Source of the DNA: Desulfobacterales bacterium
Lineage (GTDB): Bacteria; Desulfobacterota; Desulfobacteria; Desulfobacterales; Desulfobacteraceae
Assembly: GCA_022361395.1 (NCBI GenBank)
Contig: JAKSAX010000257.1
Coordinates: forward strand, 1 to 32,640
Direction of reading: 5' to 3'
Length of the DNA stretch: 32,640 bases
Shown: positions 4,638 to 26,277 of the stretch, piece after piece
Layout of the letters: each line of letters opens with the position of its first letter
Position numbering within the stretch: position 1 is the first letter of the stretch
Position numbers and translations under genes: made by a program
Notes under the pieces: generated by a model
Told to the model about the DNA's origin: nothing
What the model saw: only the letters and a program-made list of their open reading frames with translations
Database searches by the model: none

Positions 4638-4674
4638 TGATTCCTCCCGAGCCGCCGGTTTAAACATGTTGAAA

Positions 4675-4706: not shown

Positions 4707-4711
4707 CGTTT

Positions 4712-5194: not shown

Positions 5195-5235
5195 CGTCAA
5201 CTCCTTTTGCTAATTGTTTAAAATTACAAAGGATC

Positions 5236-5421
5236 TCAGGTTTTCTCTTGCTCAGACGGCGCAAACTCCTGGGCATCCTTTTTCCCTTTCCACCATTCAA
5301 AGGCAATGATACCGCCCAGGGCAACAATCCCGAACGCGGGCGATAATACTGCCAGTTTGGCCGTTGTCAGCGCTCTGCCTGTTAATCCTCCGCACGCTGC
5401 AGCCACATTTGCCTCTGCCAT
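5236..5421 (-). CDS. Small single-pass membrane protein, 61 aa, unknown function
   Basis: The ATG at 5421 is preceded by AAGGAGAAGGAAA, a strong ribosome site. The N-terminal part is Ala/Gly-rich with one cysteine (ANVAAACGGLTGRAL), followed by one hydrophobic segment (LAVLSPAFGIVALGGIIAF, about residues 23-42), then a WWKGKK interface and a polar, acidic C terminus. No family is recognised. It sits between the exporter and DUF697 copy 3, about 40 nt from the latter, and could be an accessory subunit of the membrane assembly. Codon use and the ribosome site make it a credible gene despite its size. Confidence 0.6.
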   Translation of the reverse strand: MAEANVAAACGGLTGRALTTAKLAVLSPAFGIVALGGIIAFEWWKGKKDAQEFAPSEQEKT

Positions 5422-5503: not shown

Positions 5504-8500
5504 TCAGCCGGGAGAAAGTTGACCGTAATCAAGGTGCAAAACACGGTCAGCCGTATGGAAATACCTGTCATCATGGGTTACCGCGATGACGGTCTTTCCC
5601 TGTGATTTAAAATCGGGCAACAGTTTCATATAGAAATACTCACGAAAATGCGGATCCTGATCCGCAGCCCACTCGTCGAAAATATAAACCGGTTTGTCTT
5701 CCAGTATGGTTGTCAGCAAGGCCATCCGTTTTCTCTGTCCGGTGGAGAGATCAAGGGTGGAGAACTTCCCGTTAATCCACTTAACCCGCTTATCCAGTTG
5801 AAAAACCCTGAGCAGTTCGTTTATCTTTCCCTGGTCAGGGTCTTTTATTCCGTACAAAGCGTCAAACAGATGAAAATCGGTGAATATGGGGGAGAACAAC
5901 TCCCTGTAAGAGCGGATGTCCACCGCCCTGCCATCCAGATAAACCATTCCTGAATCTGCGGGATACAGTCCGGTCATGACATTGAGCAGGGTCGATTTTC
6001 CGCTCCCGTTTCCGCCGGTAATGAAGACCACTTCACCGGCAGAGAACGAAAGGCTCATGGGGCCGATGGAGAACGGCCTGGCATCCCTTGTCCTGTATAC
6101 ATAAGATATATTATCATACCGAATGACGCCCGGACATGCCGTTTCTTCATCACTTGCCGGCTCCGGTTCCCTCGTGATTCCCTTCATCATTGTTTCAAAA
6201 TCCATGAGCCGCCTTATGGACATGTAAGCCATGTGAAACTGCGAATACCTGTCAATAACCTGCCTGAGGGGCATGGTGATAACCAGCCCCACCACCACAG
6301 GCAGGGTGGCCGCCGGAATCCCGGCAAAAGGAAGGGCCAGGATCATTACAAGGAGTATGCCTTTCCAGAACCCGTAGGTAATCGTGGCGTTCCTGATGTA
6401 AAATCCAACGGAATCCGTCTTCAACTCCCTCAAATCTTCGGCCTCTTTCCTCAGACTTCTCTCATAGAAATCGTTGCTTTTCCTGTTGCTCAGTTTCAAC
6501 TCCTTAAACCCATGGATAAGGTGGTTCACCGATTCGAATAGTTTTTTCTGCCGGTACCGCACAAGCTCGAAAAGCCTTATCATCTTCGTATGGTTAGATA
6601 TGTACAAGGCCGCCCCTATTGATGTGAGCACAACCATCAGGGCCCCGGCAGGGGGGTATAGGTACGCGACATAGAAATATATCATGACCGTTCTCAGGCC
6701 CCCCTGGAAACAGAGCAGGATGATGTCCGTGGTTTCGGATATAGCCCTGATATCCGAGGTCAAAGCCGTATAAATTCTTTCGGCTCCCACCTGATTCAAG
6801 GTCTCAAGATCGGTGTTACGCACATGATCCATCACCTTTATCCTCAAGTTCATTATCCTGTTCTCCACGGCATTGAAAAAATATTTCTGGAGGTTTCGAA
6901 AGGTAACAACCATCAGGCAAAGCATGACAATAAACCAGAGATAGGTGCTCCCTTCTATGATCTGCTGCTCCGGAATATGAATGAGAATTACCACCAGGCT
7001 GACCAGGCTGAGTGCAAAAAGCGGAAGGAAAAATAAAACCCTTTTTACGGACTCTCTCTCCTCCTGAAACATATTCCGCATTTGTGCGAAAAACCCTTTT
7101 TGTTCTTCCGTCATCCGCGGTTTAGGCGGGATTTTTTGCTTCTGCCCCGGATAAACAGGTGCTTTTTCGGCAGATGGGATTGTTAAGGCTTTTTCCGGCT
7201 TTGAGAAGAGCGGATGCAGGGCCTTGTCCCGGTCCGGACGCCATTTTTCCGCGATGCGCCCGTAATCGATGCGGATAACCTCATCCGCCACATGGAAATA
7301 CCGGTCATCATGGGTAATGGCGATGACGGTTTTCCCTTTCTCCTTAAGGGAAGGAAGGATGGTCTCGTAAAAGTAGTGGCGGAAATGCGGGTCCTGGTCC
7401 GCAGCCCATTCGTCAAAGACAAAAACCGGCCGGTCCTCCATCATTGCGATTACCAGGGCAAGCCGTTTTCTCTGTCCGGTGGAGAGTTCCAGGGTGCTGA
7501 AACCGGTTTCACGGTATCTTGTCTTACCGGTCAATCCCGTCAAGTCAAGCAACTCTTCCACCTCTTCTTTATTTACCTCTTCCATACCGTAAAAACGGTC
7601 GAAGAGATGAAAGTCGGCAAACACACCGGAGAACAGGTCCCTGTGTTCGGACATATCCACTGGGCGGCCGTCAATTCTAACCATTCCCCTCTCCGGAGGG
7701 TAGAGGCCTGTGAGAACCTTCAAAAGGGTGGATTTACCGCTTCCGTTTCCACCGACGATAAAGAGTATCTTCCCGGACTCAATGGAGAGATCGTCTATTA
7801 TTATGGAAAACCCTTCCTCCCCTTTGGCCGGATAGGTAAAACAGATGTCACTCATCAGGATCTCATTGAATTCGTCATCCCCTTTATTCCCGCTCGTGAC
7901 CTCCAGATCTTCGCCTGATCCCCGCAGGGAATCACCCTGAAAAAGCATACCTAATCTTGCCAGAGCCACACTCCCTTCTGCGATACTCTGCCGGGAAGCA
8001 TTGATGAGCATGTCGTTTTGCAGGGTAAAGAAGAGTATAATGAGGATCCGCATAACATCCCCGGAAGAGAAAGACCCTGAAAACACCGTGCATGCGAGCA
8101 TCACCAAAAGACTGGCCAGAATACTTATTATCAGAAGCTCGGCACCGTAACGGCTGCTCTTGACCCGTATTCTCCTGTTCTCATCGATTCTGGGAAGGAG
8201 GTGGCAGTTGAAAATCTCCTCGCTCTTTTTACGGTTGAATTTCAGTTCCTTGAAACCGAAAAGATGGTTCCGGAACGCGGTGAACATCCCCTTTTCCTCT
8301 TTCATCTGCAGTTGGACATACCCTCTGATGATCTTAACGAACATCTCCTGGATGAGGATGAGTAAAAAACGGACCAGAAGGACGAACAATGCGAATACGG
8401 GGGAGATATACAAGATGTAAAGCCACCCCACAAAGAGGGTGATGTACGCCTGGAGGGATTCCATGTTTTTCGTTGCAGCACTTGTTATGCTTTGGGCCCT

Positions 8501-8842
8501 TGCGATGCTCAATATGATCTCGGACGGGTTGAATCCCTCGAATTCCGGCAGCTCCATATGACGCACCGTATTGGTTATTTGCAGGACCATATTCTCAAGG
8601 GCCTTCTCAGCCAGATGTTCCGTCTTTTTCTGGGACAGGTGCCTGGTGACGAGAAAAACGGCAACGGTCACCGGAAGGGATACGGCATAAAACAGGTAGT
8701 TCCCTTTTGCAAAGATTGCGAGCGCTCCGTTGGGGATGAGTATGAGAAGCAGGCCGCCGGCCAGCCCGTTGACAACGGACAGGACGATGATGCGTAATGT
8801 TGCGCTTTCGGATGCGCTCCAGAGAAACTTAAGAAGGTTCAT
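5504..8842 (-). CDS. Double-length ABC exporter: two fused cyclic-peptide-type (SyrD/PvdE-like) half-transporters
   Basis: At 1112 residues, this is twice the usual ~550-residue cyclic-peptide exporter. Each half has about six membrane helices followed by an ATPase domain. Half 1 has Walker A GGNGSGKST at 364, signature LSTGQRKR at about 453, Walker B VFVFDEW (Asp477/Glu478) and the switch His at 511. Half 2 repeats Walker A at 943, LSTGQRKR, and VYIFDEW with AADQDPHFR. A Pro/Lys-rich linker (about 540-585) joins them. Both sites keep all catalytic residues, so both should hydrolyse ATP. The halves are clearly homologous along their whole length, indicating duplication and fusion. It probably exports the sulfated metabolite across the inner membrane. 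Its ATG lies four bases after the ligase stop, implying coupled translation. Confidence 0.9.
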   Translation of the reverse strand: MNLLKFLWSASESATLRIIVLSVVNGLAGGLLLILIPNGALAIFAKGNYLFYAVSLPVTVAVFLVTRHLSQKKTEHLAEKALENMVLQITNTVRHMELPEFEGFNPSEIILSIARAQSITSAATKNMESLQAYITLFVGWLYILYISPVFALFVLLVRFLLILIQEMFVKIIRGYVQLQMKEEKGMFTAFRNHLFGFKELKFNRKKSEEIFNCHLLPRIDENRRIRVKSSRYGAELLIISILASLLVMLACTVFSGSFSSGDVMRILIILFFTLQNDMLINASRQSIAEGSVALARLGMLFQGDSLRGSGEDLEVTSGNKGDDEFNEILMSDICFTYPAKGEEGFSIIIDDLSIESGKILFIVGGNGSGKSTLLKVLTGLYPPERGMVRIDGRPVDMSEHRDLFSGVFADFHLFDRFYGMEEVNKEEVEELLDLTGLTGKTRYRETGFSTLELSTGQRKRLALVIAMMEDRPVFVFDEWAADQDPHFRHYFYETILPSLKEKGKTVIAITHDDRYFHVADEVIRIDYGRIAEKWRPDRDKALHPLFSKPEKALTIPSAEKAPVYPGQKQKIPPKPRMTEEQKGFFAQMRNMFQEERESVKRVLFFLPLFALSLVSLVVILIHIPEQQIIEGSTYLWFIVMLCLMVVTFRNLQKYFFNAVENRIMNLRIKVMDHVRNTDLETLNQVGAERIYTALTSDIRAISETTDIILLCFQGGLRTVMIYFYVAYLYPPAGALMVVLTSIGAALYISNHTKMIRLFELVRYRQKKLFESVNHLIHGFKELKLSNRKSNDFYERSLRKEAEDLRELKTDSVGFYIRNATITYGFWKGILLVMILALPFAGIPAATLPVVVGLVITMPLRQVIDRYSQFHMAYMSIRRLMDFETMMKGITREPEPASDEETACPGVIRYDNISYVYRTRDARPFSIGPMSLSFSAGEVVFITGGNGSGKSTLLNVMTGLYPADSGMVYLDGRAVDIRSYRELFSPIFTDFHLFDALYGIKDPDQGKINELLRVFQLDKRVKWINGKFSTLDLSTGQRKRMALLTTILEDKPVYIFDEWAADQDPHFREYFYMKLLPDFKSQGKTVIAVTHDDRYFHTADRVLHLDYGQLSPG

Positions 8843-8846
8843 GGGT

Positions 8847-10259
8847 CTAATCTTGGACCATCACTTCGAGTCTCTGCCTGTCCACCTTGCCGCTGGCAAG
8901 CAGGGGGAGTGATTTTAAAAACCTGATTTCGTCGGGAACCGCCCGGTTGGGCAGGAGATCGAAACACGATGCCCGGACCCTGGATTCATCTGTATCTGCC
9001 CCTTTTTCCGGGATTATGCAGGCTATCAATCTCTTTCCCCGCCTGCTTTCACCCTTTGCCACCACAATAGCGGAATCAATGCCGGAAATCTGCTGAAGGC
9101 CGGATTCCACATCTGCAAATGAGACTAAGAGGCCGTCCCGGTTGACGCTGTGATCGTTTCTCCCGAAGACCCGGATGCTTCCGCCGGGGAGTACCTCTCC
9201 AAGATCTTTGGTGCAGAACCAACCGTCATTCTCCCGGACACACTCACCCAAGGGGATTCCGGATTCGTCGATATATCCTCCGAAGCCGTAGGGATGTTTG
9301 CACCAGAGCATACTGCGCATCCCCTCCCCTTTGACTGCCTCTTTTTTTTCAGTGCGTATAAGCACGCCGTCCATGGGATTTCCGGCGGCTTCGGACCGTA
9401 CAGATATCGGCTCATCCGCTGACGCTGCAGTCATGGCCCCCATCTCCGTGCTCCCGTATAAATTCACCAGAGGGCCGAAAAGTGATTCGTACCTCTCAAA
9501 GCTCTCCTTGTTCCGGAACCGGTCACCGGCCGTCACCGTCAGTTTGTACTTCCGGGAGCTCCTTCTTCCCTTTAACAATGTTTCGCAGAACACCGGCGTC
9601 ATGAATGCCGTATCCGGATTGAAAACCGTCTCACGCTGTATAAATCTGAGCAGATTCGCCCCGGCCTGAAGATCCACTGCAGCCCCGGCAAGCATTCCCG
9701 GCAGAAAGGCAGCGCCCAGGCCGTACATGTGGGTTATGGGAACCGGTATGGCGATTCTGCTGTTTTCTCCGAGTCCCAGGCGTGTGATACAATTTCCGGC
9801 GTTACCTTTGAGCATGGTGTGGGAATGAACCGCCATTTTGGGTACCCCGGTGCTGCCTGAGGTTCTCAGAAGCAGCTTGGGACCGGTTTCACCCGTAAGG
9901 TCCGCCGGCACGTGGTCGTAGTTTTCGATTATGCGCAGATAGTCATCAGCGCCGGTCCGCTCCCCCTTTTTCTCTCCATAACCTGCCACGATCTTATACC
10001 TGCAAAAGCAGGGGAAATAGCCTGCACCGTCATCCGGCTCCATGCCAATCAATAGGAAATTGTACCCCTCTTCCAGTAAATAGAGGAGTGTCAGGGCACC
10101 GGGCAGGGAGTTGCTGCATGACAATACCACCGGATCATCCCTGCCGACGAAATTCCTGTGAAAAACCTTTTTTATACTCTCAAAATGACCGGCAATATCC
10201 GAAAACCGGCATGTGTCGTCTCCGTCACTAACGGCAGTGTTTTGATTTATAAACTTCAT
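8847..10259 (-). CDS. Stand-alone AMP-forming acyl/aryl ligase (adenylation enzyme)
   Basis: The 470-residue ANL-superfamily enzyme shows P-loop TSGSTGVPK (133-141), NLYGSTEMGAM (A5-like) and the C-terminal LLASGKVDR with the catalytic Lys at about 458. It has no carrier domain of its own. The core resembles aryl-acid and benzoate-type ligases (THMYGLGAAFLPG) more than amino-acid adenylation domains, but the binding-pocket residues cannot be decoded with certainty here. It sits 19 nt after a chorismate lyase gene, so 4-hydroxybenzoate is the likely substrate, activated as an adenylate and passed to the ACP at 22029-22295 or to CoA. It is slightly short for the family (500-550 residues), with a compressed N-terminal subdomain. 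Confidence 0.85.
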   Translation of the reverse strand: MKFINQNTAVSDGDDTCRFSDIAGHFESIKKVFHRNFVGRDDPVVLSCSNSLPGALTLLYLLEEGYNFLLIGMEPDDGAGYFPCFCRYKIVAGYGEKKGERTGADDYLRIIENYDHVPADLTGETGPKLLLRTSGSTGVPKMAVHSHTMLKGNAGNCITRLGLGENSRIAIPVPITHMYGLGAAFLPGMLAGAAVDLQAGANLLRFIQRETVFNPDTAFMTPVFCETLLKGRRSSRKYKLTVTAGDRFRNKESFERYESLFGPLVNLYGSTEMGAMTAASADEPISVRSEAAGNPMDGVLIRTEKKEAVKGEGMRSMLWCKHPYGFGGYIDESGIPLGECVRENDGWFCTKDLGEVLPGGSIRVFGRNDHSVNRDGLLVSFADVESGLQQISGIDSAIVVAKGESRRGKRLIACIIPEKGADTDESRVRASCFDLLPNRAVPDEIRFLKSLPLLASGKVDRQRLEVMVQD

Positions 10260-10278
10260 GGTTTCAAACCTTCCGTTC

Positions 10279-10845
10279 TTAAATAAAATAAGTTTCCGGA
10301 AATTTCTCCGTTATCATCATTACCGGCTTCCGGTCGGAATATACGAGATAAGTCCGGCAGAGAAGGGGACAAGTTCTTTCAACCTTGAAATAATCGGCAA
10401 TGTACCCTGCAGGTTGACAAAATGTGGCAACCACCTCCTTGAACGTCTCGGTTTTGCAGTCCTGCCACAGCTTCCCTATGGGAATATTCGATTTGATCAA
10501 CCCGTCCCTGAATCTTTTTTCCAGGCAATGGGGGACAATGATCGATTCCGCATAAAGGCAGTTCTTACCGCTGGAGACCCCTTGCAGAACCACCTTTCTT
10601 TCCATCACATCCCTTCCCGGCTCCACTGCCATAATCGGGATACCAGAAGCTGACGGTTTCAACTCTTCGGACAATTTCACGATCTTGATCGATTCCGACA
10701 TATAAATCTCCAGAATCTCCGTAAGGGTGCCGTCCATTGTCAGGAGGATTTTCTGGAACAATCCCAATGTCTCTTTGTTCACCGGTTCCGACTCCGGATT
10801 TTCAGACTTTAAATCGTAAACCGCATTTTCACTGTATTTCAGCAT
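10279..10845 (-). CDS. Chorismate pyruvate-lyase (DUF98/Rv2949c-like), forms 4-hydroxybenzoate
   Basis: The start is ATG 10845 (MLKYSEN) with GGGGGG five bases upstream; it overlaps the sulfotransferase stop by 17 nt. The 188-residue protein matches the mycobacterial Rv2949c type of chorismate lyase by recall: DGTLTEILEIYMSESIKI, then KVVLQGV and YAESIIVPHCL, IPIGKLWQDCKTETFKE and finally KPVMMITEKFPETYF. These enzymes cleave chorismate into 4-hydroxybenzoate and pyruvate. In mycobacteria the product primes phenolic glycolipid polyketides through a FadD-type ligase; the adjacent ligase gene here suggests the same logic. Ubiquinone synthesis is less likely, as no ubiA or other ubi gene is nearby. 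Confidence 0.85.
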   Translation of the reverse strand: MLKYSENAVYDLKSENPESEPVNKETLGLFQKILLTMDGTLTEILEIYMSESIKIVKLSEELKPSASGIPIMAVEPGRDVMERKVVLQGVSSGKNCLYAESIIVPHCLEKRFRDGLIKSNIPIGKLWQDCKTETFKEVVATFCQPAGYIADYFKVERTCPLLCRTYLVYSDRKPVMMITEKFPETYFI

Positions 10846-11524
10846 AGTTTCCCCCCATATCTTTGCAGCCGTCAAAAGTATAGCCGAAAAAAGCGATATC
10901 CTCTTTGAAGTACTCCCCTACCATTTTTCTGGTTTTGTCAGTGTAATAGTCTCTGTAATCCCTGTGCCCGGATCCGTTGATTTTCGGCAGAGCCCCTTCA
11001 ATGCCGAGGCGGTCGCAGACCCTTGCAAAATCACGTTCCAGGGTTTCGAATCTTCCCAGAAAATCCACCATTAACCGCCCTTCCCGGTCTGTAAGCATCG
11101 GTTTCTGAAACTTTGCCGCTCCCCTGGGATAAGGCCTGGGCGTATTGATGACCCACTCCAGGTATTCACCGAAACCGTTCATGGCGCTTACGGTTTCGTA
11201 CCGTACGTGTGTCGGGTCTTTCAGGATGAAATGGTACATGGAAACCTGCCAGTCCCAGGGGTTACGCACAAAGGCAAATTTGTAGCAGGAATTAAACACC
11301 TCCGGGGTCACCTCTTTTTTTACATCCCTGGCACTGGCATGATACAACGAATAACGCCAAATATCGTAGAGCGGGTTCGGTCTGCCGTCGATGGTTTTGG
11401 CAGGCCTTTTTATTTTGAATTTTTCCGGCTCCGAGCAGTGGGGTTCAAGTATCTTCCGGATGCTCATGCCGGCGGCCTTGGCAACATGAATGAAAATGGA
11501 TTTACGGCTGCGGGATATCAGCAT
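10829..11524 (-). CDS. PAPS-dependent sulfotransferase (family 2 type)
   Basis: The 231-residue protein has the 5'-phosphosulfate loop SIFIHVAKAAGMSIRKIL at residues 9-26 and the 3'-phosphate motif FAFVRNPWDWQVSMYHF near residue 90, both diagnostic of sulfotransferases moving sulfate from PAPS to a hydroxyl or amine. No membrane anchor is present, so it acts in the cytoplasm. The ATG is six bases after the anSME stop, with GGAGG and AAAGG just upstream. It is the second sulfotransferase of the operon and differs strongly from that at 22288-23556, so they probably sulfate different positions or substrates. The phenolic hydroxyl of a 4-hydroxybenzoyl group is a reasonable target but is not proven. 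Confidence 0.85.
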   Translation of the reverse strand: MLISRSRKSIFIHVAKAAGMSIRKILEPHCSEPEKFKIKRPAKTIDGRPNPLYDIWRYSLYHASARDVKKEVTPEVFNSCYKFAFVRNPWDWQVSMYHFILKDPTHVRYETVSAMNGFGEYLEWVINTPRPYPRGAAKFQKPMLTDREGRLMVDFLGRFETLERDFARVCDRLGIEGALPKINGSGHRDYRDYYTDKTRKMVGEYFKEDIAFFGYTFDGCKDMGGNYAEIQ

Positions 11525-11529
11525 TGCCT

Positions 11530-12723
11530 TTAATTGCCTCCTTTCCCGGCATCCTCACGGGCAATTATCTCCATGATCCGTGCCGGCGGCTGCCCGGTTT
11601 TCAGCAATTGGGCCATCGTCTTCATGGGCCGGTCTATGTGCGTGAAAAATGACCGGTATCCTTCACACAGATAGTTGAGGCCCGCTTCTCCGTCAGGTGT
11701 TTTTATGAACCTGTTTTTGGGGCATCCTCCCCGGCACCTTTGGCCGACTTCACATTGCCTGCAGTATTCCGGGAGTTTTTTCTTCTTGTCATGGCCGAAT
11801 ACCTTTTGTTTTGCCGAAGTCACGAGGCCGGCCATGCCGTTTTCCCCAATGTTTCCAAGACGGTATTTCGGCTCTACAAAATGATCGCAGGAGTAAAGGT
11901 CTCCGTTGTGTTCCAATGCAAGTGCATGGCCGCAGGCGTCTGCAAAGATGCACAAAGAGGGAGGCGCCCCCAGCCAGCTGCCCAGTGACACATCAAATAT
12001 CTGAACAAATACCCGGCCCACATCATGACGCACCCATTCATCAAAGACGGAATTCAGGAAGGAGCCGTACGCCATGCCCCCTATTGAATGTTCCGTCACC
12101 GTGTCCCCCTCCTGGAACCCTGTGTTGTTCTTTCTTACCACGATGGGGATGAACTGTATGAACTCTGCCTGGACCTCATCCCTCAAAAAGCGGTAGACCT
12201 CCATGGGATGGGCATAGTTGGCCGCGTGAACACAGGTGAGAATATTTACGGCCACATCATGTTTTTTTAAAAGTTCAGCCCCATTGAACACCTTGCGGAA
12301 GCTCCCTTTCCCACTTTTATCCACACGGTATGCATTGTGAATATTTTCCGGGCCGTCCATGCTGAGGCCGATGAGGAAATCATGGGTTTTAAAAAATTCG
12401 CACCATTTGTCATCAAGCAGCACCCCGTTGGTCTGCATGGTATATCTTATTCTCTGTCCCGGTTTTTTGTACCGTTCGGCCAGTTCCACCGATTTCCGGA
12501 AAAAATCAACGCCCATGAGGGTCGGTTCCCCGCCCTGCCAGGCCACTTCCACCTCAGGCCCCTGTTGCCCGCCTATGTACTGGCGCAGGTATGAGTTCAA
12601 CGTATCAACGGTCATGCGGAATTTACTGCCGGGATAAAGCCTTTCCTTTGACAAAAAAAAGCAGTATTTACAGTTCAGGTTACAAACTGCGCCGGTCGGT
12701 TTGGCCAGAAGATGAAATAACAA
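11530..12723 (-). CDS. Anaerobic sulfatase-maturating enzyme (radical SAM/SPASM)
   Basis: This 397-residue protein starts at TTG 12723: an in-frame stop lies upstream and no ATG precedes the radical SAM cluster motif. The motif CNLNCKYC (Cys14, 18, 21) binds the SAM [4Fe-4S] cluster. The SPASM region near the C terminus has the pattern CIFADACG, YSCDHFVEPKYRLGN, YCRQCEVGQRCRGGCPKNRF and YLCEGYR, typical for anSME with two auxiliary clusters. The enzyme oxidises the Cys or Ser of C/S-x-P-S-R in sulfatases to formylglycine without oxygen. The sulfatase at 30028-32505 carries CSPSR and is the evident client. That the gene is placed inside the biosynthetic operon links sulfatase activation to production. 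Confidence 0.92.
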   Translation of the reverse strand: MLFHLLAKPTGAVCNLNCKYCFFLSKERLYPGSKFRMTVDTLNSYLRQYIGGQQGPEVEVAWQGGEPTLMGVDFFRKSVELAERYKKPGQRIRYTMQTNGVLLDDKWCEFFKTHDFLIGLSMDGPENIHNAYRVDKSGKGSFRKVFNGAELLKKHDVAVNILTCVHAANYAHPMEVYRFLRDEVQAEFIQFIPIVVRKNNTGFQEGDTVTEHSIGGMAYGSFLNSVFDEWVRHDVGRVFVQIFDVSLGSWLGAPPSLCIFADACGHALALEHNGDLYSCDHFVEPKYRLGNIGENGMAGLVTSAKQKVFGHDKKKKLPEYCRQCEVGQRCRGGCPKNRFIKTPDGEAGLNYLCEGYRSFFTHIDRPMKTMAQLLKTGQPPARIMEIIAREDAGKGGN

Positions 12724-12759
12724 GATTGAATCCCTTTTCCGTTAAAAAACTGTTCGTAT

Positions 12760-14323: not shown

Positions 14324-14324
14324 T

Positions 14325-15329: not shown

Positions 15330-15339
15330 ACGCCTCCTT

Positions 15340-19300: not shown

Positions 19301-20203
19301 CACAGTGGCCTTTTCCTGCCCTTCAACTCCCGGGGCCGTATATCCTAATTTTGTGGCGCCGTCGTTGTTCACTGCGGTGCTGAGGATAATGGCGTTTATG
19401 CTGTCACCGTCCGACAGGGCGTTTTCCAGCCTCTTGAGGACCACAACGCCACCGCCGCTCCCGATGACAATACCCTTTGCCTTTGCGTCAAAGGCCCGGA
19501 TATAACCGTCATCGGAATAGACGGTTCCCTCCTGGTATAAATACCCCTCCTTCTGGGGGACACGCACGAACACCCCGCCGGCGAGGGCCATGTCACACTC
19601 GTATGTCTTCAAAGACTGGCAGGCCAGGTGTGTGGCTACCAAAGAAGTGGAACAAGTGGTATTGACGTTGATACTCGGTCCTGTGAGGTTCAATTCATAG
19701 GAGGCCCTCATGGGCATGAGATCCTTTTGATTGGTGATGGCCATCTCCAAACGCTCGGCCGACACATAGGTGAATATGTTGCTCGGCATAAGGTTCCGCA
19801 AAAGATATGTGGAGAGGCCGGTTCCGGCGTATACCCCCACTCTTCCATCGTAATTGTCCGAAACGTATCCGGCGTTCTCCATGGCTTCCCATGCACATTC
19901 CAGAAAAACACGATGCTGGGGATCAAGTATCCTCGCCTCCCGGGGACTCATGTTGAAAAATTTTGCGTCGAACAACTCTATGCCGTTCAGAACCCCGTAG
20001 GCCTTCACAAAATCAGGGTTCTCAAGGAATGCGGGATCAAGGCCGGATTCCAGAGCTTCTTCGTCGCTGAAAAAGACTATGGAACAGACTCCGTCCCGAA
20101 GATTCTGCCATAATTCCTCCGTATTTCTTGCTCCGGGAAAACGTCCGGCCATGCCTATAACGGCAATGGCATCCTCAAGGTGCTCAGTTTTCAGCTTGTT
20201 CAC
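16337..20203 (-). CDS. Type I modular polyketide synthase, KS-AT-ACP-TE
   Basis: The 1288-residue protein starts at GTG 20203, two bases after the C-PCP stop region, with an AGGAGGAGG ribosome site. Domains: KS about 11-440 (Cys184 in NTTCSTSLVA, His320 in EAHGTGTALGDP, His365 in TNLGHTNHG); AT about 540-860 (Ser637 in GHSIGEY; HAFH at 733-736 predicts malonyl-CoA); ACP about 930-1000 (Ser964 in FFELGGNSL); TE about 1030-1285 (Ser1107 in GGTSFGG, Asp1134, His1267 in PGNHITM). There is no KR, DH, ER or MT domain, so one unreduced two-carbon extension is expected followed by release. The KS motif NTTCSTS differs from the usual DTACSSS. It may accept an aroyl or aminoacyl chain from the C-PCP protein. 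Confidence 0.95.
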   Translation of the reverse strand: MNKLKTEHLEDAIAVIGMAGRFPGARNTEELWQNLRDGVCSIVFFSDEEALESGLDPAFLENPDFVKAYGVLNGIELFDAKFFNMSPREARILDPQHRVFLECAWEAMENAGYVSDNYDGRVGVYAGTGLSTYLLRNLMPSNIFTYVSAERLEMAITNQKDLMPMRASYELNLTGPSINVNTTCSTSLVATHLACQSLKTYECDMALAGGVFVRVPQKEGYLYQEGTVYSDDGYIRAFDAKAKGIVIGSGGGVVVLKRLENALSDGDSINAIILSTAVNNDGATKLGYTAPGVEGQEKATVEAISFADIPSDTITYVEAHGTGTALGDPVEFESLTRSFRATAEDRENLEKGYCAIGSVKTNLGHTNHGAGVSGLIKTVMSLKNRMIPGSLHFEEPNPKMDFENSPFYVNTSLKEWETNGIPRRALVNSFGIGGTNAHVVLEEAPDLPPSGPSRPWQLLTLSARTLSALETMTENLAAHLGKNPDLNLADAACTLKLGRKAMPCRRSVLCRDTADATKVLSECDPKRMFSSTCETEGKKVVFMFSGQGAQYVNMAKELYVTELLFKEQVDLCSEILRSHLGFDLCGIIYPGNGGEKEAEEKLRETAITQPALFVVEYALARLWMSWGVEPVSMIGHSIGEYVAACLSGVFTLEDALALVVERGIMMQEMAPGDMLAVPLPAEKLGPFLDKDLSLSVVNGPDLCVAGGTAQSVAGLKAKLKEHGIEGTLLHTSHAFHSHMMAPVAGPFVERVGRMTLSPPKIPYISNVTGNWIKDEEAMDPEYWGRHLRHTVHFADGMGVLVKDPDLVLLEVGPGRTLNTLAVRHPDKSGDQVSLTSVRHPKERVNSDVAFILMTLGKLWLAGVKTDWAGFYKNERRHRVPLPSYPFERRRYWIDTPKRTTVTPGTYVRPEIDDMENEETVSDPAAGDKAGMSPKEERIKQIWEDVLTIDNIGKHDDFFELGGNSLIAVALVSRLKTALKVELTVRDFLNFPTISELSGIIDISRENKSGKIKNPPKPKSLPKCMMRIKGGSGSKRPLFLVHPIEGQVFFYRDLALGLNTDRRVYAFQARGLGRGEEPFTTIPDMAAHYVDSLLEKQPKGPFLLGGTSFGGIVAFEMSQILTAAGESVELLFLIDSPMPQKTPFKLDDDSDIVVFIARNILKIDKDRISRDQLRQLDLNGQINRLLEEAKHNGSLPEDYEASGLMRLIRVFKANEKAMNRYSPSTYPGRLIYFRAKESWNVNGSYRPEFFWTDYAGEGIEINTVPGNHITMNYGENVLPMAKRIGACLG

Positions 20204-20204
20204 T

Positions 20205-21995
20205 TTACCTCCTCCTGACTCTGATCGCTTTTTTTTGTCGCCTCTTCATTGCCTCTTTCTGCATTTTCCTCCTGTCACGAATGGGACGGGTGTTTATCTC
20301 CTCTTTGACTCCGTTCAGGCTCAGGTAGTCTGCAATCCCTTTTACCGTTGGGGCCTTCAGGAGTTCCATGGCCGGAATTTCCCGGCTTAAAATCTGCTGC
20401 AGCCTTCCGCAAATCTTAACCATGCCCAGGGACCTGCCGCCCAGGTCGAAAAAGGAGGTATTTATATCCACCGCAGACAAACCCGTCACCTCCATCCAGA
20501 CTTTTGCAACGGTCTTCTCCATCTCGGTTCGGGGCAGGGTCAACGTCTCCCCCTTTCGAGGCTTTTTCGGCTTACAGGCAGGTTCATCTCCGTACATGGG
20601 CAGTTCCCCCAGGTGAATATCCGGAGAGGCCGTAAGCAATCCAAGGAGATTTTTCAAAACCGCCAGCATTCCTGTTATGGTCTCTCTCGTGAAAAGTCCT
20701 GTTTTATAACGCATGACCCCGGTCAGGCATTTGCCGTTCTTCTTGAATGAAAGAGAGAGATCAAAGTTCGAGATACCTTCTTCCAGGTCTACCTGTGTAA
20801 GGGCGAGATCCGCCATCTTGTCCGGCTGGTTCGGGACGTTCTGGAAGGCAAACATGCATCTGGAGATTACCGCTCCCGGAATTCCCAGTACATCCGCAAG
20901 GTGCTGCAACGGTATTTCCTGGTGGGCCATGGCCCGGGTTGTGCCCTGCCCCACCCTTTCAACCAGCTCCCTGAACGTCAGGGAATCCGCAAGCTCCGTC
21001 TTCATGGGAAGCACATTGTTGAAGTAGCCGATGAGTTTCTTTGTCTCCGGCCTGCTTCTTCCTGCAACAGGGGAGCAAAGAATCATTGTTTTCTGGCCGG
21101 AATACCGGAATAAAAGCGTCTTGAATGCTGAAAGAAGTAGCACATACAAAGAGATCCCGCGGTCTATGCAAAATCTTTCCAGCCTGTTGGAAAAGGCCTG
21201 GTCAAGAACCAGATATTCGCTGCCTCCCCGGTAGGAGAGGATTTTGGGCTCCCCTGCATCCTCGGGCAAACGCAATACAGGGAAGTTGCCGGAAAAATGT
21301 GCCTTCCAATAATCCGTATGGGAGGTTAAAAGCTCTCCTGTCATCCTTTCCCTCTGGAAATGGGCATAGTCCTTGTATTGAATGGGAAGGGGCTTCAGGG
21401 GGGAGGGCCTGCCTTCTTTGAAAGCGGTGTAAACAGCCGAAAGCTCCCTCATGAACAGGCTGTCGGACCATCGGTCATTGACGATATGATGGATGGTCCT
21501 CAGCAAAATATAGTTCATTTCCCAAAGGCGGAGAAGCCTGACCCGTACAAGCGGCCCCCTGGTCAGATCAAAGGGCTTCCTGGCCTCCCGGCCTGCTAGT
21601 TTCCTTATCTCCCCCTCCTGGCGTGACACCGGGATATCATTCAAATCCTCTGTGGCAAAATCAATACAGACATTCGTGGAGATAATCTGAAATCCATCAT
21701 CTCCACCGCCCCCAAAGGTGGTGCGCAAAACCTCGTGCCGTCCGATTATCTCCCTGAGGCTCCTCTTGAGGATATCCTCGTCAAGGTGGCCCCTGAGGCG
21801 GATGGCGCTTCGCAGGTTGTGCCCGACATTCCCCGGATTCATGCGATCGATCTGCCATAACCTTTCCTGACCGAATGAAAGAGGCGGTTTTTTGGTGACG
21901 GGAGCAGGTTTGATGGGACCGGCCTCATGTGTAAGCCTCACCCCTGCCTTTACAGCCTCCCAGAAACCCGAGGATTCTCCTGGTTTTTCAAGCAT
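20205..21995 (-). CDS. NRPS condensation domain plus peptidyl carrier protein, no adenylation domain
   Basis: Start ATG 21995 (MLEKPGES) has AGGAGA three bases upstream; an earlier TTG is unlikely. The 596-residue protein has a C domain (about 35-460) with LSFGQERLW and RHEVLRTTF, and the active-site motif HHIVNDR (His169, His170, Asp174), in which the usual DG glycine is Arg175. A PCP follows (about 480-560, Ser522 in FFDLGGRSL). The last 27 residues are strongly basic (15 Lys/Arg), a possible docking tail for the PKS or ACP. No A domain is present, so its carrier must be charged in trans, perhaps by the stand-alone ligase. The C domain may make an amide or an ester bond. Confidence 0.9.
   Translation of the reverse strand: MLEKPGESSGFWEAVKAGVRLTHEAGPIKPAPVTKKPPLSFGQERLWQIDRMNPGNVGHNLRSAIRLRGHLDEDILKRSLREIIGRHEVLRTTFGGGGDDGFQIISTNVCIDFATEDLNDIPVSRQEGEIRKLAGREARKPFDLTRGPLVRVRLLRLWEMNYILLRTIHHIVNDRWSDSLFMRELSAVYTAFKEGRPSPLKPLPIQYKDYAHFQRERMTGELLTSHTDYWKAHFSGNFPVLRLPEDAGEPKILSYRGGSEYLVLDQAFSNRLERFCIDRGISLYVLLLSAFKTLLFRYSGQKTMILCSPVAGRSRPETKKLIGYFNNVLPMKTELADSLTFRELVERVGQGTTRAMAHQEIPLQHLADVLGIPGAVISRCMFAFQNVPNQPDKMADLALTQVDLEEGISNFDLSLSFKKNGKCLTGVMRYKTGLFTRETITGMLAVLKNLLGLLTASPDIHLGELPMYGDEPACKPKKPRKGETLTLPRTEMEKTVAKVWMEVTGLSAVDINTSFFDLGGRSLGMVKICGRLQQILSREIPAMELLKAPTVKGIADYLSLNGVKEEINTRPIRDRRKMQKEAMKRRQKKAIRVRRR
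20208..20216 (-). promoter_or_regulatory. Ribosome binding site of the PKS, made of three arginine codons
   Basis: The last three codons of the C-PCP gene are AGG AGG AGG, followed by TAA, one A and the GTG start of the PKS. The triplets form an ideal Shine-Dalgarno sequence four bases before the GTG. This supports the GTG start and tight coupling of the two synthetase genes. Confidence 0.75.
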
Positions 21996-22028
21996 AACTC
22001 TCCTATCAACCAATCAAAGCTCCTGTGG

Positions 22029-22295
22029 TTATGCGCCTTTTTTCAATTGATGCCTGGAAACCGCCTCGGCAACAGCTTTCAGATTATCGAACATCTCCAT
22101 TGTGAGTTCCGCTTCGGAAAACTGAAAACCGAAAGTCTCCTCGATAAGGGTGATGAACTCCACGATAACAACGGAATCCAGTCCTATACCCTCTTCGAAA
22201 AGGGAGGTATTTTCGTCTATCTCCCCGACAGAGATATTCACATCCAGCTCGCTGGCAATAATCTGTTTCAGGCTTTCAATAATTTGATTACTCAT
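22029..22295 (-). CDS. Discrete acyl carrier protein
   Basis: The 88-residue protein has the carrier fold with the phosphopantetheine serine Ser41 in GIGLDSVVIVEFI and an acidic N-terminal half, with a downstream FGFQFSEAELTMEMFDN helix. Its ATG overlaps the preceding sulfotransferase stop by 8 nt. As an unattached carrier it could be the loading site for the 4-hydroxybenzoyl adenylate made by the ligase, or a carrier on which the radical SAM or sulfotransferase enzymes work. No dedicated phosphopantetheinyl transferase is in the window, so a host enzyme must activate it. Confidence 0.9.
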   Translation of the reverse strand: MSNQIIESLKQIIASELDVNISVGEIDENTSLFEEGIGLDSVVIVEFITLIEETFGFQFSEAELTMEMFDNLKAVAEAVSRHQLKKGA

Positions 22296-23556
22296 CTGCC
22301 GTCCTTTCCTTAATTAATGCTTCCAATCTATTCATAACCGGTTTTACCGCCGGTAAGACCCTCATGATATCTTCGTAATTCATCCGCCATTTTTCAGGAG
22401 CAGGTTTGGTCAGGGCCAGGGTCGAAACAGGGAGTGGCTGTGATACTTTTTTTTCGATCCCCTCGTCCCAACGTAAATCCGCAAAAGTGGCGATTCCTTT
22501 AACTGTTTCCCCGGGTTTTTCCACCAAATCACGGAAAGAGACCGGAAGCCACGAGTCCGTGGGAATTTGCTCCAGATCATCCATGATACTATTGTTTGCG
22601 GTCATCCACTGGAAAGCGGCTATCTCGGCAATGGAGGCTTCCGCAAGGCCGGTCCAGCCCGGGACCAGAAGAAAACTCCACTCCCTGAACGGCCAGCCGG
22701 GCAAATCCCTGTAGGAGACGTACCTGCGTGACCGCCACCCTTCCATCAGGCTGCTGATGCTCTCCTTTGGATCGCGGTATAAAAATATGAAACGCGCTCC
22801 GGGAAAGACCGTATTCAGGAACGGCACACGGAGGGCGTTTTTAGGGGTTTTTTCCAGAAACCTGACACTTCGGAGACGCTTTTTGCCGGAAAGATTGAGA
22901 AAAAGCCGGCCGTCGCGGTCTTTCAGTTGCCGGGCAAAACGCTTTTTGAGTTCGGATGCCAGGTGCTGCGTTGCGTTTTCCTGTGTAAGCCTGTTGGAAA
23001 CGTATCCGAACCGCGAAGGATGGAGTTCTTCTATCCCCTCTATAGTCTCATGGCTTTCCCGGCCGATTGTCCAGATATCCGGAAAAGTGGTCAGGGTTTC
23101 GAAAAGAAGGGTGCTCCCCACCCTGGGGGCGGACAGAATAAAAACAGGTTTTTCAAAGACCGGCGGTTGGAAACCGTTTTTGAGTCCCCGGAAATCCCTT
23201 TTCCGTTTCATTTTATCTAACAGCCAACCCAGGTTCCCGGGCTGGAATGAAAACATGGACGTACGGATTGTTTCCATGGCTGTTTTGCCGCTGTCATCTA
23301 TGAGGCCCTTGCTAAGGAAGGGCTTGATTTGATGGAGAAAGCGAATTATCAAATCCCGGAAGGTCAACTCTCCCGCGGGATCATCTCCAAAAGTCGTCCA
23401 GGCATTTTCCCATTTGGTGCAAAAATCAGCAATAGCCGAGGTCAGCGCCAAACTATCCTCTTTGTGCTCTCCGTTAAGCGTCTTCCCCGGCAGGATTTTA
23501 TTCGTGACTTCGAAAATCTCCTCCGGCGGCATCAGGCGGAATCCGGAGTTGTTCAT
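22288..23556 (-). CDS. Large PAPS-dependent sulfotransferase (Sulfotransfer_3 type)
   Basis: Start ATG 23556 (MNNSGFRL) overlaps the HemN-like gene stop as ATGA and has GGAG eight bases upstream; an ATG eleven codons earlier is less likely. The 422-residue protein carries the 5'-phosphosulfate loop VFILSAPRVGSTLLFETL about 140 residues in, and the 3'-phosphate motif RFIFLYRDPKESISSLMEG. The ~135-residue N-terminal extension resembles no domain I recognise and may bind a carrier protein. Related large sulfotransferases act in polyketide pathways on carrier-bound or free chains. Its place between radical SAM and ACP genes suggests sulfation of an ACP-bound intermediate, but terminal-alkene chemistry of the CurM kind is not expected, as there is no ketoreductase to make a beta-hydroxyl. 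Confidence 0.85.
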   Translation of the reverse strand: MNNSGFRLMPPEEIFEVTNKILPGKTLNGEHKEDSLALTSAIADFCTKWENAWTTFGDDPAGELTFRDLIIRFLHQIKPFLSKGLIDDSGKTAMETIRTSMFSFQPGNLGWLLDKMKRKRDFRGLKNGFQPPVFEKPVFILSAPRVGSTLLFETLTTFPDIWTIGRESHETIEGIEELHPSRFGYVSNRLTQENATQHLASELKKRFARQLKDRDGRLFLNLSGKKRLRSVRFLEKTPKNALRVPFLNTVFPGARFIFLYRDPKESISSLMEGWRSRRYVSYRDLPGWPFREWSFLLVPGWTGLAEASIAEIAAFQWMTANNSIMDDLEQIPTDSWLPVSFRDLVEKPGETVKGIATFADLRWDEGIEKKVSQPLPVSTLALTKPAPEKWRMNYEDIMRVLPAVKPVMNRLEALIKERTADE

Positions 23557-24827
23557 TTTCCCATCTCCACAAGTGGGGCTGCCAGGCATCTGCCTGTGTA
23601 ATCTCCGTACAGTATCCCCTTTCGGGTAAGGGTCAAGGCGTCTTTGGTTGTTGTGATATATCCTTCACCCTCCATCTTATCGATGGCTTCCCCGCACAGG
23701 GTTTCAAGGGGGATTCCAAATCTCTGCCTGAATTTTTCCAGGTCAAGACTGAGCAGTTTCATCCCCAGAAGCACCGTTCGGATCATCTGTTCCAGACCGG
23801 TCAGGTGATAGCCCCGGTTTACCGGCAGTTCCCCCGCTTCCAGCCTTGACATGTATTTCTCTTCGTCGTTGGTGTTCTGATAGAGCCGGGAACCCAGTTC
23901 TCCAAAGGCGGATGCCCCGAAGGCAAAGCAATCGTTCCCCTCCCATACACTCGATATATAGGTATGCTTGTAGTTCCCGTTTTTTGTAAAGGTGAAGAAG
24001 CACCAGGGAAGATAATCAGCCTTTTCGAATTCATCCAGAGCATGGTTCATGAAAGAGAGCTCATTGTCGTTATCCGGCAACTCTATCTTTTTCCGGCGGA
24101 GGCTCTTGTAGTAATCGGTATTGGCATAAAGCTCCATTTTGTAAATGGTGATGCTTTCAGCCCCTGAAGAGAGGGCCCGGTCTATGGTATAAGCCCATGA
24201 ATCACCCTTTTCCGCGGCTAAACCGCTCAGCAGGTCAATATTGACCACAGCTCCCATGCTACGGGCGATATCAACCGCTTTCAACGCTTTCTCCTCGTTA
24301 TCCAAACGGTTACAGATTTCAAGGATTTCGTCCCTGAAAGACTGTACGCCGAGGCTTATGCGATTTACATGCATCTTCTTGAGAAGCGCTGCTTTCTTCG
24401 GGGTCAGGGTGACCGGTTCGGCCTCCACCGTGAACTCCGGGCTATCCACGTTCAGATGTTCGAAAAGTGTCTTTCCCAGCCTTTCCAGCTGATCCGAGGT
24501 CAGTATTGTTGGCGTGCCCCCTCCGAAATAGATGGACAGCACCGGCCTGTCCTGAAGATGAAACTTTTGGGCAGTCAGCTCAATCTCACGGCATAATGCA
24601 TCCACATATCTGTTCAGGAATTTTCTCCTGTCTATCCCTTTCAGGTCGTTTGTCCTGTAGTAGCAATACGCGCACCGCTGGATGCAAAAAGGGATATGCA
24701 CATAAACATTTATCGGTTTGCCCGGCAGGATCGACTCTGCTGCCGTTCTCTTCCATTGCCGATAAGGAGGATAGTTGGTTATAAATCCCTTTCTGGACGG
24801 GGTCGGAAAAATAAGTTCTTTTTTCAT
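23553..24827 (-). CDS. HemN/HemW-like radical SAM enzyme, probably biosynthetic (class C methylase/cyclase-like)
   Basis: The 424-residue protein has the radical SAM motif CIQRCAYC (Cys48, 52, 55) within NVYVHIPFC, then IYFGGGTPTIL, the EAEPVTLT strand and RISLGVQSF, all typical of HemN relatives. The C-terminal HemN domain is present (GLEQMIRTVLLGMKL). The fourth Cys of HemN (CxC) is replaced by Tyr57, and the heme-binding HNxxYW of HemW reads HTYISSVW, so neither coproporphyrinogen oxidase nor heme chaperone is a safe call. HemN-like class C enzymes in natural-product clusters perform C-methylation or cyclopropanation with two SAM molecules. Its ATG overlaps the DUF697 stop (ATGA) and its stop overlaps the sulfotransferase start, placing it firmly in the pathway. 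Confidence 0.8.
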   Translation of the reverse strand: MKKELIFPTPSRKGFITNYPPYRQWKRTAAESILPGKPINVYVHIPFCIQRCAYCYYRTNDLKGIDRRKFLNRYVDALCREIELTAQKFHLQDRPVLSIYFGGGTPTILTSDQLERLGKTLFEHLNVDSPEFTVEAEPVTLTPKKAALLKKMHVNRISLGVQSFRDEILEICNRLDNEEKALKAVDIARSMGAVVNIDLLSGLAAEKGDSWAYTIDRALSSGAESITIYKMELYANTDYYKSLRRKKIELPDNDNELSFMNHALDEFEKADYLPWCFFTFTKNGNYKHTYISSVWEGNDCFAFGASAFGELGSRLYQNTNDEEKYMSRLEAGELPVNRGYHLTGLEQMIRTVLLGMKLLSLDLEKFRQRFGIPLETLCGEAIDKMEGEGYITTTKDALTLTRKGILYGDYTGRCLAAPLVEMGK

Positions 24828-25378
24828 GAACCGGTATCCGCTTTGGTCTTTCCTTTTTTCTTTTTTGCGGCCGGCGTCTTCTTGATTACCTCTACGTCTT
24901 CCGCTAATTTTTCGCCTTCACCGGCAACTTTCTTCCCCTCCTTGAACATCTCGGCATAGTACTCCTTTGCTCTGTCGGGATCGAATGTGAGAAATGTGCC
25001 ACCGGTACCGAAATGCTGTACAAAAACCTTTGCCACGGCATAGGTGGAGGCGCCGGCAATGGCCGGCATGGTGACTGCGCCTGCGGTCCATCCGATGACC
25101 GGAATGCTCTTTGTGATACTGGCCGCCAGGGTCGGCCCGACCGAACTGGGAAGTGCGCTACCCAGAAGGCTTGCAATTATGTTTTTCACCCTGTCCCTTG
25201 AAAACGGAACCTCGTATGACTTTGCGATTTTTCTTACGAGATTCAACTGAATAGCCGTTAAAGCCACCATATCCACAGCAGGAACCGGTACCAGGCCGAT
25301 TCCGATGGAAGCCCACACATGATGTTTTATGACCTTGTCCAGATCCTCCTTGACGACTGTCTCTTCTACGGTTTCCAT
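24824..25378 (-). CDS. DUF697-family small membrane protein, copy 4, with Lys-rich tail
   Basis: The 184-residue paralogue of the three genes at 1162-5194 shows VWASIGIGLVPVPAVDMVAL, IQLNLVRKIAKSYEVPF, hydrophobic segments (about 70-120), GASTYAVAKVFVQHF and GTGGTFLTFDPDRAKEYY. It is the only copy with a long charged C terminus (about residues 150-184), with a KKKKGK cluster. The ATG has GGAG eight bases upstream. Its TGA overlaps the ATG of the radical SAM gene, so it is made together with the biosynthetic enzymes. That, and the multiplicity of the family around the locus, makes a role in the pathway likely, for instance as a membrane anchor; the biochemical function is unknown. Confidence 0.82.
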   Translation of the reverse strand: METVEETVVKEDLDKVIKHHVWASIGIGLVPVPAVDMVALTAIQLNLVRKIAKSYEVPFSRDRVKNIIASLLGSALPSSVGPTLAASITKSIPVIGWTAGAVTMPAIAGASTYAVAKVFVQHFGTGGTFLTFDPDRAKEYYAEMFKEGKKVAGEGEKLAEDVEVIKKTPAAKKKKGKTKADTGS

Positions 25379-25446
25379 TCTTTAATCTCCTGTTTTTATG
25401 GGTATTTAAATGTCTTGCGCGGTCTCTTTCTAAGTGCCGGTGTAAA

Positions 25447-26277
25447 TCATTTTTGAAGTTCCCTCTTGAAAAAATCCGCCACCGGGTGAAGAACCTCTTT
25501 TGGGGTCTCTTTTCCGAATCCGTGTCCAAATCCCGGCAGGATCCGCAGTTCCGATCTCGCCCCTTTCTTTGTCAGGGCGTCGTGGAGCAGTTTACTCTGA
25601 TCCGGCAGAACAGCGGCATCGTTCTGGCCGTGCATGATCAGGAAAGGGGGGCAATGCCCGTTAATATGGGTGATCGGATTCGCCTCTTTCACCTTATCCG
25701 GCACATCCCGGATAGGAGCTCCGAGAAATTTGGATTCAAAGGAATCAGGGGCGTCATGGTCGTACATTCCGGGGCGGTCGTTCATGCGGGAAAAATCGCT
25801 GGGCCCGCACCAGTCACAAACGGCCTGGACATTGCTGGGCAAATCCGGGAAAGGGCCCACATTGTCCCATGACCTGACTTCCTCGGTGGTTCCGAGCATT
25901 GCCGCCAGGTATCCTCCGGCGGAATCCCCCCATGCGCCGATGCGTTCCTTGTCTATATTGAACTTATCCGACATTCCCCGGACCCATCTCACGATTGATT
26001 TTGCATCCTCGATCTGGGCGGGAAACTGTGCCTGATGGGAGAGCTGGTAATCGGGGCAGACAATGGCAAAGCCATGCGCCAGCAGGTGGAGAGCCGGCTC
26101 ACAGCAATGCCTGTCTCCCATGGTCCAGCCGCCCCTGAAAAACCAGATCACCGCCGGCGTCGAGGACTCGGCCTCCGGATGCCACCAGACAGTTACCTTG
26201 AGATTGGGGTCGATATCATCCCGAAACGTCAACTCTGGCTCACATTTCACATGAGCTGGAATCAGGGGGTTCTCCAT
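25447..26277 (-). CDS. Alpha/beta-hydrolase esterase (BD-FAE / carboxylesterase type)
   Basis: The 276-residue cytoplasmic protein has no signal peptide. The nucleophile elbow is GDSAGG (WGDSAGGYLAAMLG), the acid is the Asp in IMHGQNDAAVL and the base the His in GFGHGFGKE. The oxyanion segment, normally HGGGW, reads FFRGGWTMGD, so the first His is replaced. It probably hydrolyses a carboxylic ester, perhaps an aromatic or aroyl ester in this context. The ATG has GGGAGG five bases upstream. It is the first gene of the long minus-strand operon, 68 nt ahead of DUF697 copy 4; being first could reflect a protective or editing function, but this is only inference. Confidence 0.85.
   Translation of the reverse strand: MENPLIPAHVKCEPELTFRDDIDPNLKVTVWWHPEAESSTPAVIWFFRGGWTMGDRHCCEPALHLLAHGFAIVCPDYQLSHQAQFPAQIEDAKSIVRWVRGMSDKFNIDKERIGAWGDSAGGYLAAMLGTTEEVRSWDNVGPFPDLPSNVQAVCDWCGPSDFSRMNDRPGMYDHDAPDSFESKFLGAPIRDVPDKVKEANPITHINGHCPPFLIMHGQNDAAVLPDQSKLLHDALTKKGARSELRILPGFGHGFGKETPKEVLHPVADFFKRELQK

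Follow-up and report, generated by a model that had tools for sequence, protein, structure and literature searches.

A candidate gene cluster for a sulfated aromatic NRPS-PKS metabolite, predicted to be built on a mobile starter-unit cassette, in a Desulfobacterales bacterium

The window analyzed here, a stretch of 32,640 nucleotides from a Desulfobacterales bacterium (GenBank assembly GCA_022361395.1, contig JAKSAX010000257.1), corresponds to contig C378 of a 6.57-Mb genome assembly of 611 contigs and carries a compact biosynthetic operon on its minus strand. Judged from its genes, this operon would direct the synthesis of a sulfated aromatic metabolite by non-ribosomal peptide synthetase (NRPS) and polyketide synthase (PKS) enzymes, built on a mobile starter-unit cassette, a reading to which we assign a probability of about 0.6. 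From a DUF697 gene to an exporter gene (25378 down to 5504), neighbouring genes overlap or lie, by their open reading frame coordinates, no more than 36 bp apart. The chorismate lyase, ligase, acyl carrier protein (ACP), assembly-line proteins, HemN-like radical SAM (S-adenosylmethionine) enzyme, methyltransferase, two sulfotransferases and exporter listed in the original prediction were all found at their places on this strand with Pfam support for each, and an anaerobic sulfatase maturase, an SsuABC/NMT1-type importer, the DUF697 protein and an alpha/beta hydrolase were added to them. The product class then foreseen, a 4-hydroxybenzoate-primed, sulfated PKS/NRPS metabolite of an anaerobe, is consistent with the lyase family and its residues, the ligase and ACP, the sulfotransferases, the malonyl-type acyltransferase and the affiliation to Desulfobacterales. 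A nearly collinear copy of this island was found in one other Desulfobacterales genome (G494), and a partial copy in another (G265).

Starter-unit enzymes and assembly line

The Rv2949c-like chorismate lyase (10279..10875) matched PF01947 with 61.4 bits against a gathering cut-off of 22 (1.3e-16), and by eye probably starts at an ATG at about 10845, not at the listed TTG. Residues R93 and E190 were invariant in the 12 sequences aligned, and are presumably the conserved Arg/Glu catalytic pair of UbiC, as judged from numbering and motif comparison. In structural comparisons the best match was the DUF98 protein 2nwi, and GntR effector domains ranked above structures of UbiC, the E. coli chorismate lyase; the protein scored below the cut-off of the cyanobacterial chorismate lyase equivalog NF037993 (30.3 versus 175 bits). 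A search of the genome with PF04345 for a UbiC-type lyase encoded elsewhere gave no match. Adjacent to the lyase gene, both in the window and in G494, is a gene for a 470-aa adenylate-forming ligase (8847..10259), predicted to be a 4-hydroxybenzoate--ACP ligase. Its predicted partner, a stand-alone aryl carrier protein of 88 aa (22029..22295), holds the phosphopantetheine site in a GLDS motif.

The HemN-like enzyme (23553..24827) fell below the NCBIfam cut-offs for HemN (163.5/325), HemW (179.1/205) and HutW (201.4/400). A CxxxCxxC motif was invariant in 16 homologues, and the predicted structure (pLDDT, predicted local distance difference test, 87.5) matched HemN 1olt at 5.8e-30. Sequence matches in the PDB were to HemN 1olt (5.4e-28), the radical SAM methyltransferase NocN (2.6e-18) and, more weakly, Elp3 chains; the protein has a HemN fold with CxxxCxxC, as do the HemN-like class C radical SAM methyltransferases. 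In 10 genomes, each cluster copy was far closer to the window copy than any paralogue of the same genome, the latter scoring 143 bits or less; the Thiomargarita record yielded no HemN paralogue. A tree of 24 sequences, in which some paralogues formed long branches, separated the 10 cluster copies from the 14 same-genome paralogues by a branch with 100/99 support. The paralogue scores and the place of the paralogues outside the cluster group ruled out a resident heme gene. The original prediction had left the role of this enzyme blank. CoeI of the coelulatin pathway is needed for the C2 hydroxymethyl/methoxymethyl group on an anthraquinone and methylates in vitro, and NosN yielded a hydroxymethylated shunt product, according to the parts available of one source (PMC9714029). 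On these precedents, and from its usual place beside the ligase and ACP genes, we propose that the HemN-like enzyme is a dedicated subfamily member predicted to transfer one carbon, as methyl or hydroxymethyl, to ACP-bound 4-hydroxybenzoate.

Two sulfotransferases of different families are encoded in the operon, one of the Sulfotransfer_3 family (22288..23589) and one of the Sulfotransfer_2 family (10829..11524), the latter 61% and 55% identical to its homologues in G494 and G265, respectively. The assembly line comprises a condensation (C)-peptidyl carrier protein (PCP) didomain (20205..22013) and a ketosynthase (KS)-acyltransferase (AT)-ACP-thioesterase (TE) protein, equivalent to one polyketide module (16337..20203). 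By eye, the motifs of the latter look active (KS cysteine in TTCSTS, and EAHGTGT; AT GHSIG and HAFH, a malonyl-type motif; ACP LGGNSL; TE GTSFGG). The didomain shows HHIVND in the C domain and LGGRSL in the PCP; the residue following HHxxxD, usually glycine, is R, K and R in the three Desulfobacterales C domains. Its basic C-terminal tail of about 22 residues (20208-20280) is conserved in all three Desulfobacterales copies and perhaps docks to the KS. Pfam searches found no adenylation (A) domain in the operon except that of the stand-alone ligase, so the amino acid for the C-PCP protein would be loaded in trans; the only other condensation domains found in the genome were in a 4.9-kb NRPS fragment that also carries A and PCP domains. 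An O-methyltransferase with Dimerisation and Methyltransf_2 domains (15340..16344) follows. The predicted double exporter proved to be a single 1112-aa protein of the PvdE/SyrD type (5504..8842), a tandem fusion in which two stretches match the cyclic-peptide exporter family TIGR01194 (579 bits, cut-off 286).

The cassette in other genomes and in known systems

In G494, identities to the window proteins were 65% for both the DUF697 protein, which precedes HemN, and HemN, 49% for Sulfotransfer_3, 69% (over 65 residues) for the ACP, 45% for C-PCP, 57% for KS-AT-ACP-TE, 42% for the O-methyltransferase, 37% for the maturase, 54% for the lyase, 57% for the ligase and 61% for the exporter. After the exporter came a small protein, a DUF697 protein (68%), another small protein, a Band_7 protein (69%), a binding protein (60%) and further DUF697. 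The HemN frame in G494 is open, ruling out a missing or broken gene. Extra genes in G494 encode a sulfatase, a DUF481 protein and another Sulfotransfer_2 protein, and the importer was unmatched in it. The G265 cluster comprises an exporter (59%), an APS (adenosine 5'-phosphosulfate) kinase, DUF481, Sulfotransfer_3 (49%), HemN (55%), two Sulfotransfer_2 proteins, a C-terminal piece of a sulfatase, C-PCP (39%), KS (53%), a molybdenum hydroxylase (70%), ligase (47%) and ACP (57%); no match to the lyase, O-methyltransferase, importer binding protein, importer permease or maturase was found in G265. The APS kinase gene (L032, 12325-12972) would supply 3'-phosphoadenosine-5'-phosphosulfate for the sulfotransferases. 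A P-type ATPase gene was seen near the cluster in G494 (L058, 10632-12647) and at five methanotroph loci (L090, 11409-13505; L093, L098, L104 and L108).

A collection of species genomes was scanned with a ligase alignment, yielding 40 loci, of which 32 clear ones were counted and eight weak ones (L112-L119) left out; gene presence was scored by tblastn bit-score thresholds set by hand, several contigs being short and several loci near-copies of one another. The 32 loci span Cyanobacteria (Microcystis, Aphanizomenon, Dolichospermum, Xenococcus, Spirulina, Moorena, a Trichodesmium metagenome-assembled genome and others), Gammaproteobacteria (Thiomargarita, Halobeggiatoa, Methylobacter and other methanotrophs, Pseudoalteromonas), Sorangium, Chitinophaga, a Rhodobacterales metagenome-assembled genome and Desulfobacterales. 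A core of lyase, ligase, ACP, HemN-like enzyme and sulfotransferases is found again, with members missing in some cases, in Cyanobacteria, Gammaproteobacteria, Sorangium and Chitinophaga. Across all 32 loci the ACP was present in 21, any sulfotransferase in 19 (Sulfotransfer_3 in 13), HemN in 17, the lyase in 12, and a sulfatase and a thioester reductase in eight each; among the 16 loci flanked on either side by 9 kb or more, the corresponding figures were 13 for the ACP, 13 for any sulfotransferase, 11 for HemN, nine for the lyase and eight for a sulfatase. In 15 of 17 loci, no more than 700 bp separated HemN from the ligase, the exceptions being L090 (1.9 kb) and L109 (6.2 kb). Ligase, ACP and HemN were seen together in five phyla, joined by a sulfotransferase in four, and lyase and ligase co-occurred in three. 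The Aphanizomenon/Dolichospermum set adds a thiamine pyrophosphate enzyme, a Sulfotransfer_1 protein and a reductase-condensation protein, which would fit the making of a propylamine side chain. At the Desulfosudis-type locus of G540 (L060), no HemN was seen; two B12-binding radical SAM proteins (845-2719 and 4390-6336), perhaps for a different ring alkylation, and a thioester reductase were observed there.

Three Microcystis loci (L092, L094 and L095) together hold homologues of the ligase (46%), ACP (47%), HemN (46%), Sulfotransfer_3 (46-47%), lyase (48%) and O-methyltransferase (38%). L092 also encodes NRPS modules (A, N-methyltransferase-type, PCP and C domains) and a thioester reductase, as found by Pfam, and by eye a cis-prenyltransferase-like protein. 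Aeruginoguanidines combine a 1-(4-hydroxy-3-hydroxymethyl)phenyl-1-hydroxy-2-propylamine trisulfate, an aryl unit that we found stated in none of the open-access texts searched, with prenylated arginine. Such an aryl unit would need a starter of this kind; we infer that these loci are the aeruginoguanidine/microguanidine (agd) cluster. The starter set of lyase, ligase, ACP, HemN-like enzyme and sulfotransferase is common to the window and to these agd-type loci, and the original claim that no described cluster has this content was too strong. By contrast to agd, the operon in the window has a C-PCP protein only, with no adenylation-domain NRPS modules for the arginine part, and Pfam matched none of the window genes to a prenyl-supply or prenyltransferase family; unlike L092, it lacks a thioester reductase and has a KS-AT-ACP-TE protein. 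In the text available from each source, agd is described as a 34-kb NRPS cluster (PMC10304443), aeruginoguanidines as N-prenylated peptides (PMC4413215) and aeruginoguanidine as linked to an NRPS cluster (PMC8222398); in that available from five others it is cited or listed (PMC12838216, PMC6477967, PMC12737578, PMC12367966, PMC8225149).

The analogy originally drawn with mycobacterial phenolic glycolipids extends no further than the family of the lyase and the principle of priming. In that system (Rv2949c, FadD22, Pks15/1), 4-hydroxybenzoate is the starter for a PKS and FadD22 is a ligase-ACP fusion. The PF01947 family is common to Rv2949c and the window, in which, by contrast, ligase and ACP are separate proteins, there is one PKS module, and HemN and sulfotransferases are present. 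In nosiheptide biosynthesis (NosI/NosJ/NosN), a thiopeptide system, a ligase and a carrier feed the ring; to our knowledge neither the coelulatin nor the nosiheptide system has a chorismate lyase or a sulfotransferase. The two TIGR01194 stretches of the exporter are as in PvdE/SyrD-type exporters, some relatives of which are side-by-side pairs of about 540 aa, in contrast to the single chain of the window. CoeI and NosN resemble the enzyme proposed here in HemN-like one-carbon transfer to an aromatic ring, coelulatin differing as a type II PKS product, as far as the available parts of the source tell (PMC9714029). One further paper (PMC6520454) was discarded as a match, the chorismate lyase and sulfotransferase in its available text being unrelated. 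Among the papers listed by our searches of the open-access literature, none was seen to describe this cluster outside Microcystis.

Genomic setting and accessory genes

The window starts inside murA, and the island lies 5' of this gene. The murA end matched 17 of the 18 congeners searched at 77-86% identity (one match being partial; the 18th, an incomplete genome, gave none) and overlaps contig C9 by 141 identical bases; these two observations ruled out that the contig is a contamination. No island genes were found around murA in the three congeners inspected (G014, G008 and a short contig of G011), where matches were to generic ABC ATPases only. The ligase turned up in 7 of the order's 389 genomes, one of them that of the window, and the 17 listed genomes of the same genus gave no match to it; the PF01947 lyase was found in 1 of 59 genomes searched, the window's own. 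The rarity of ligase and lyase, together with congener murA surroundings devoid of island genes, indicates that the island is patchy and was probably acquired. In two congeners (L134 and L135), the region 5' of murA holds other inserted-looking genes, by eye transposase-like and recombinase-like, so this region may be an insertion hot spot.

The conserved unit exceeds the span first assigned to it. Upstream, it probably extends to a single-chain molybdenum hydroxylase of the D. gigas aldehyde oxidoreductase type (26821..29433, minus strand; PDB 1dgj, 7.8e-97), homologues of which showed identities of only 33-35% in the same genus, 51-54% in three other relatives and 70% in G265, where the gene lies between KS and ligase within the cluster; for this reason the enzyme probably belongs to the system. 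Membership of a BD-FAE alpha/beta hydrolase (25447..26277, minus strand) is uncertain; no match to it was found in the related regions searched. The DUF697 gene that opens the operon occupies 24824..25378. Within the operon, an importer is encoded by genes for an NMT1/SsuA-type binding protein (14325..15368), an SsuB-type ATPase (13529..14323) and an SsuC-type permease (12760..13548). No match to this importer (12760-15368) was seen in the related regions searched; its substrate could be a sulfonate, a sulfate ester or a precursor.

Downstream, the unit extends to about 1162, collinear in G494, through minus-strand genes for a small membrane-like protein conserved in G494 (5236..5421), a DUF697 protein (4712..5200), a second small membrane-like protein (4470..4667), an SPFH/Band_7 protein (3472..4449), a Peripla_BP_6 binding protein (2252..3475) and two further DUF697 proteins (1684..2172 and 1162..1662), the last before murA; neither small protein matched Pfam. 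The Peripla_BP_6 protein is 407 aa long in the window, 912 aa in G494 (L058, 2738-5476), where it is fused to SBP_bac_5, and 941 aa in G528. Elements of this flank (1162-5421; three DUF697 proteins, one Band_7, one Peripla_BP_6 and the two tiny membrane-like proteins) are found next to exporters in G494, G528, G509, G540 and methanotroph loci L093 and L098 as well, also with different NRPS/PKS genes alongside; the flank may serve in a membrane domain or in sensing the product. The window gave no tRNA and no match to Rfam.

Proposed pathway, rival explanations and implications

Gene content, intact motifs, conservation, synteny and the separate grouping of the HemN copies are what was observed; what the enzymes act on, in which order, where the carbon is added and what is produced are proposals. 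Chorismate lyase would generate 4-hydroxybenzoate, which the ligase would adenylate and load onto the 88-aa ACP. The HemN-like enzyme would then place one carbon from SAM on the carrier-bound ring, most likely ortho to the phenol, as a methyl or hydroxymethyl group, and the two sulfotransferases would sulfate the phenol and/or hydroxymethyl groups. The aryl-ACP would act as donor for C-PCP, charged in trans with its amino acid, and KS-AT-ACP-TE would add one malonyl unit and release a short amide/polyketide. The O-methyltransferase would tailor the product, and the fused PvdE-type exporter would carry it to the periplasm.

Two of these assignments have rivals at the level of the starter. The ring might be plain 4-hydroxybenzoate without an extra carbon, the HemN-like enzyme acting later or elsewhere, on the assembled chain or as a cyclopropanase-type catalyst. 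HemN-like enzymes do perform many natural-product reactions, cyclopropanation included, according to the available part of PMC9714029, and 4 of the 16 long ligase loci show no HemN. However, HemN stays close to the ligase even where the other genes of the locus vary, an arrangement that links it to the charged ACP and not to a particular chain, and makes plain priming unlikely. Alternatively, the acid activated by the ligase could be a different one, such as a compound brought in by the SsuABC-type importer, and the lyase could have another purpose. The specificity of ANL (adenylate-forming) enzymes is not readable from sequence, and the G265 ligase has no lyase nearby. Against this, lyase and ligase are found together in nine of the 16 long loci and are neighbours in both the window and G494, and the importer was matched in the window only among related regions; we consider activation of another acid quite improbable.

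A different question is whether sulfate is a temporary mask, the exported product being desulfated in the periplasm by a sulfatase that depends on the radical SAM maturase for its maturation, so that the active compound is unsulfated. The window maturase (11530..12723), a radical SAM/SPASM protein, scored 482 bits for TIGR03942 (cut-off 349). In G494 and G540 the maturase gene adjoins that of a sulfatase whose N terminus is lipoprotein-like and whose catalytic residue is serine (SxPSR). G528, whose NRPS-PKS cluster is a different one but shares the type of exporter and flank, has a sulfatase of this sort, by eye also with a catalytic serine, about 6 kb from the maturase. This arrangement suggests that some relatives remove sulfate after export, and sulfation may be partly a removable mask; sulfatase genes were seen at a quarter of the counted ligase loci. 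By contrast, the operon of the window has the maturase and lacks that sulfatase. A divergent sulfatase at 30028 is of the Cys type with no evident signal, and was rejected as the cluster's sulfatase on its weak matches (22-31%) to those of the relatives. The cyanobacterial sulfatases of L088 and L092 also showed no evident signal by eye, and aeruginoguanidines are isolated with their sulfates on. We consider a mask with an unsulfated active compound unlikely, and the product of the window, where the maturase was kept and the sulfatase was not, may stay sulfated.

Returning to the preferred reading of a sulfated metabolite built on a starter cassette, a more specific version can be put forward tentatively, at less than even odds. 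The cassette would move horizontally, with a dedicated HemN subfamily hydroxymethylating carrier-bound 4-hydroxybenzoate before sulfation; it would feed a one-module PKS in sulfate reducers, and in some of these sulfate would serve as a reversible export mask, lifted by a lipoprotein Ser-type sulfatase with a co-encoded maturase. The chemistry would not be wholly undescribed, since the Microcystis versions lie in the presumed agd cluster, whose product bears a sulfated 4-hydroxy-3-hydroxymethylphenyl group; what looks new is the cassette across phyla and, in sulfate reducers, its coupling to a PKS. A likely role for this HemN-like subfamily, and a testable hypothesis, is to methylate or hydroxymethylate the ring while it is bound to an acyl carrier protein, before sulfation. 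Sulfate-reducing bacteria, giant sulfur bacteria, methanotrophs and bloom-forming cyanobacteria would have one starter unit in common, and the cluster flags a possible source of new sulfated metabolites in anaerobes.

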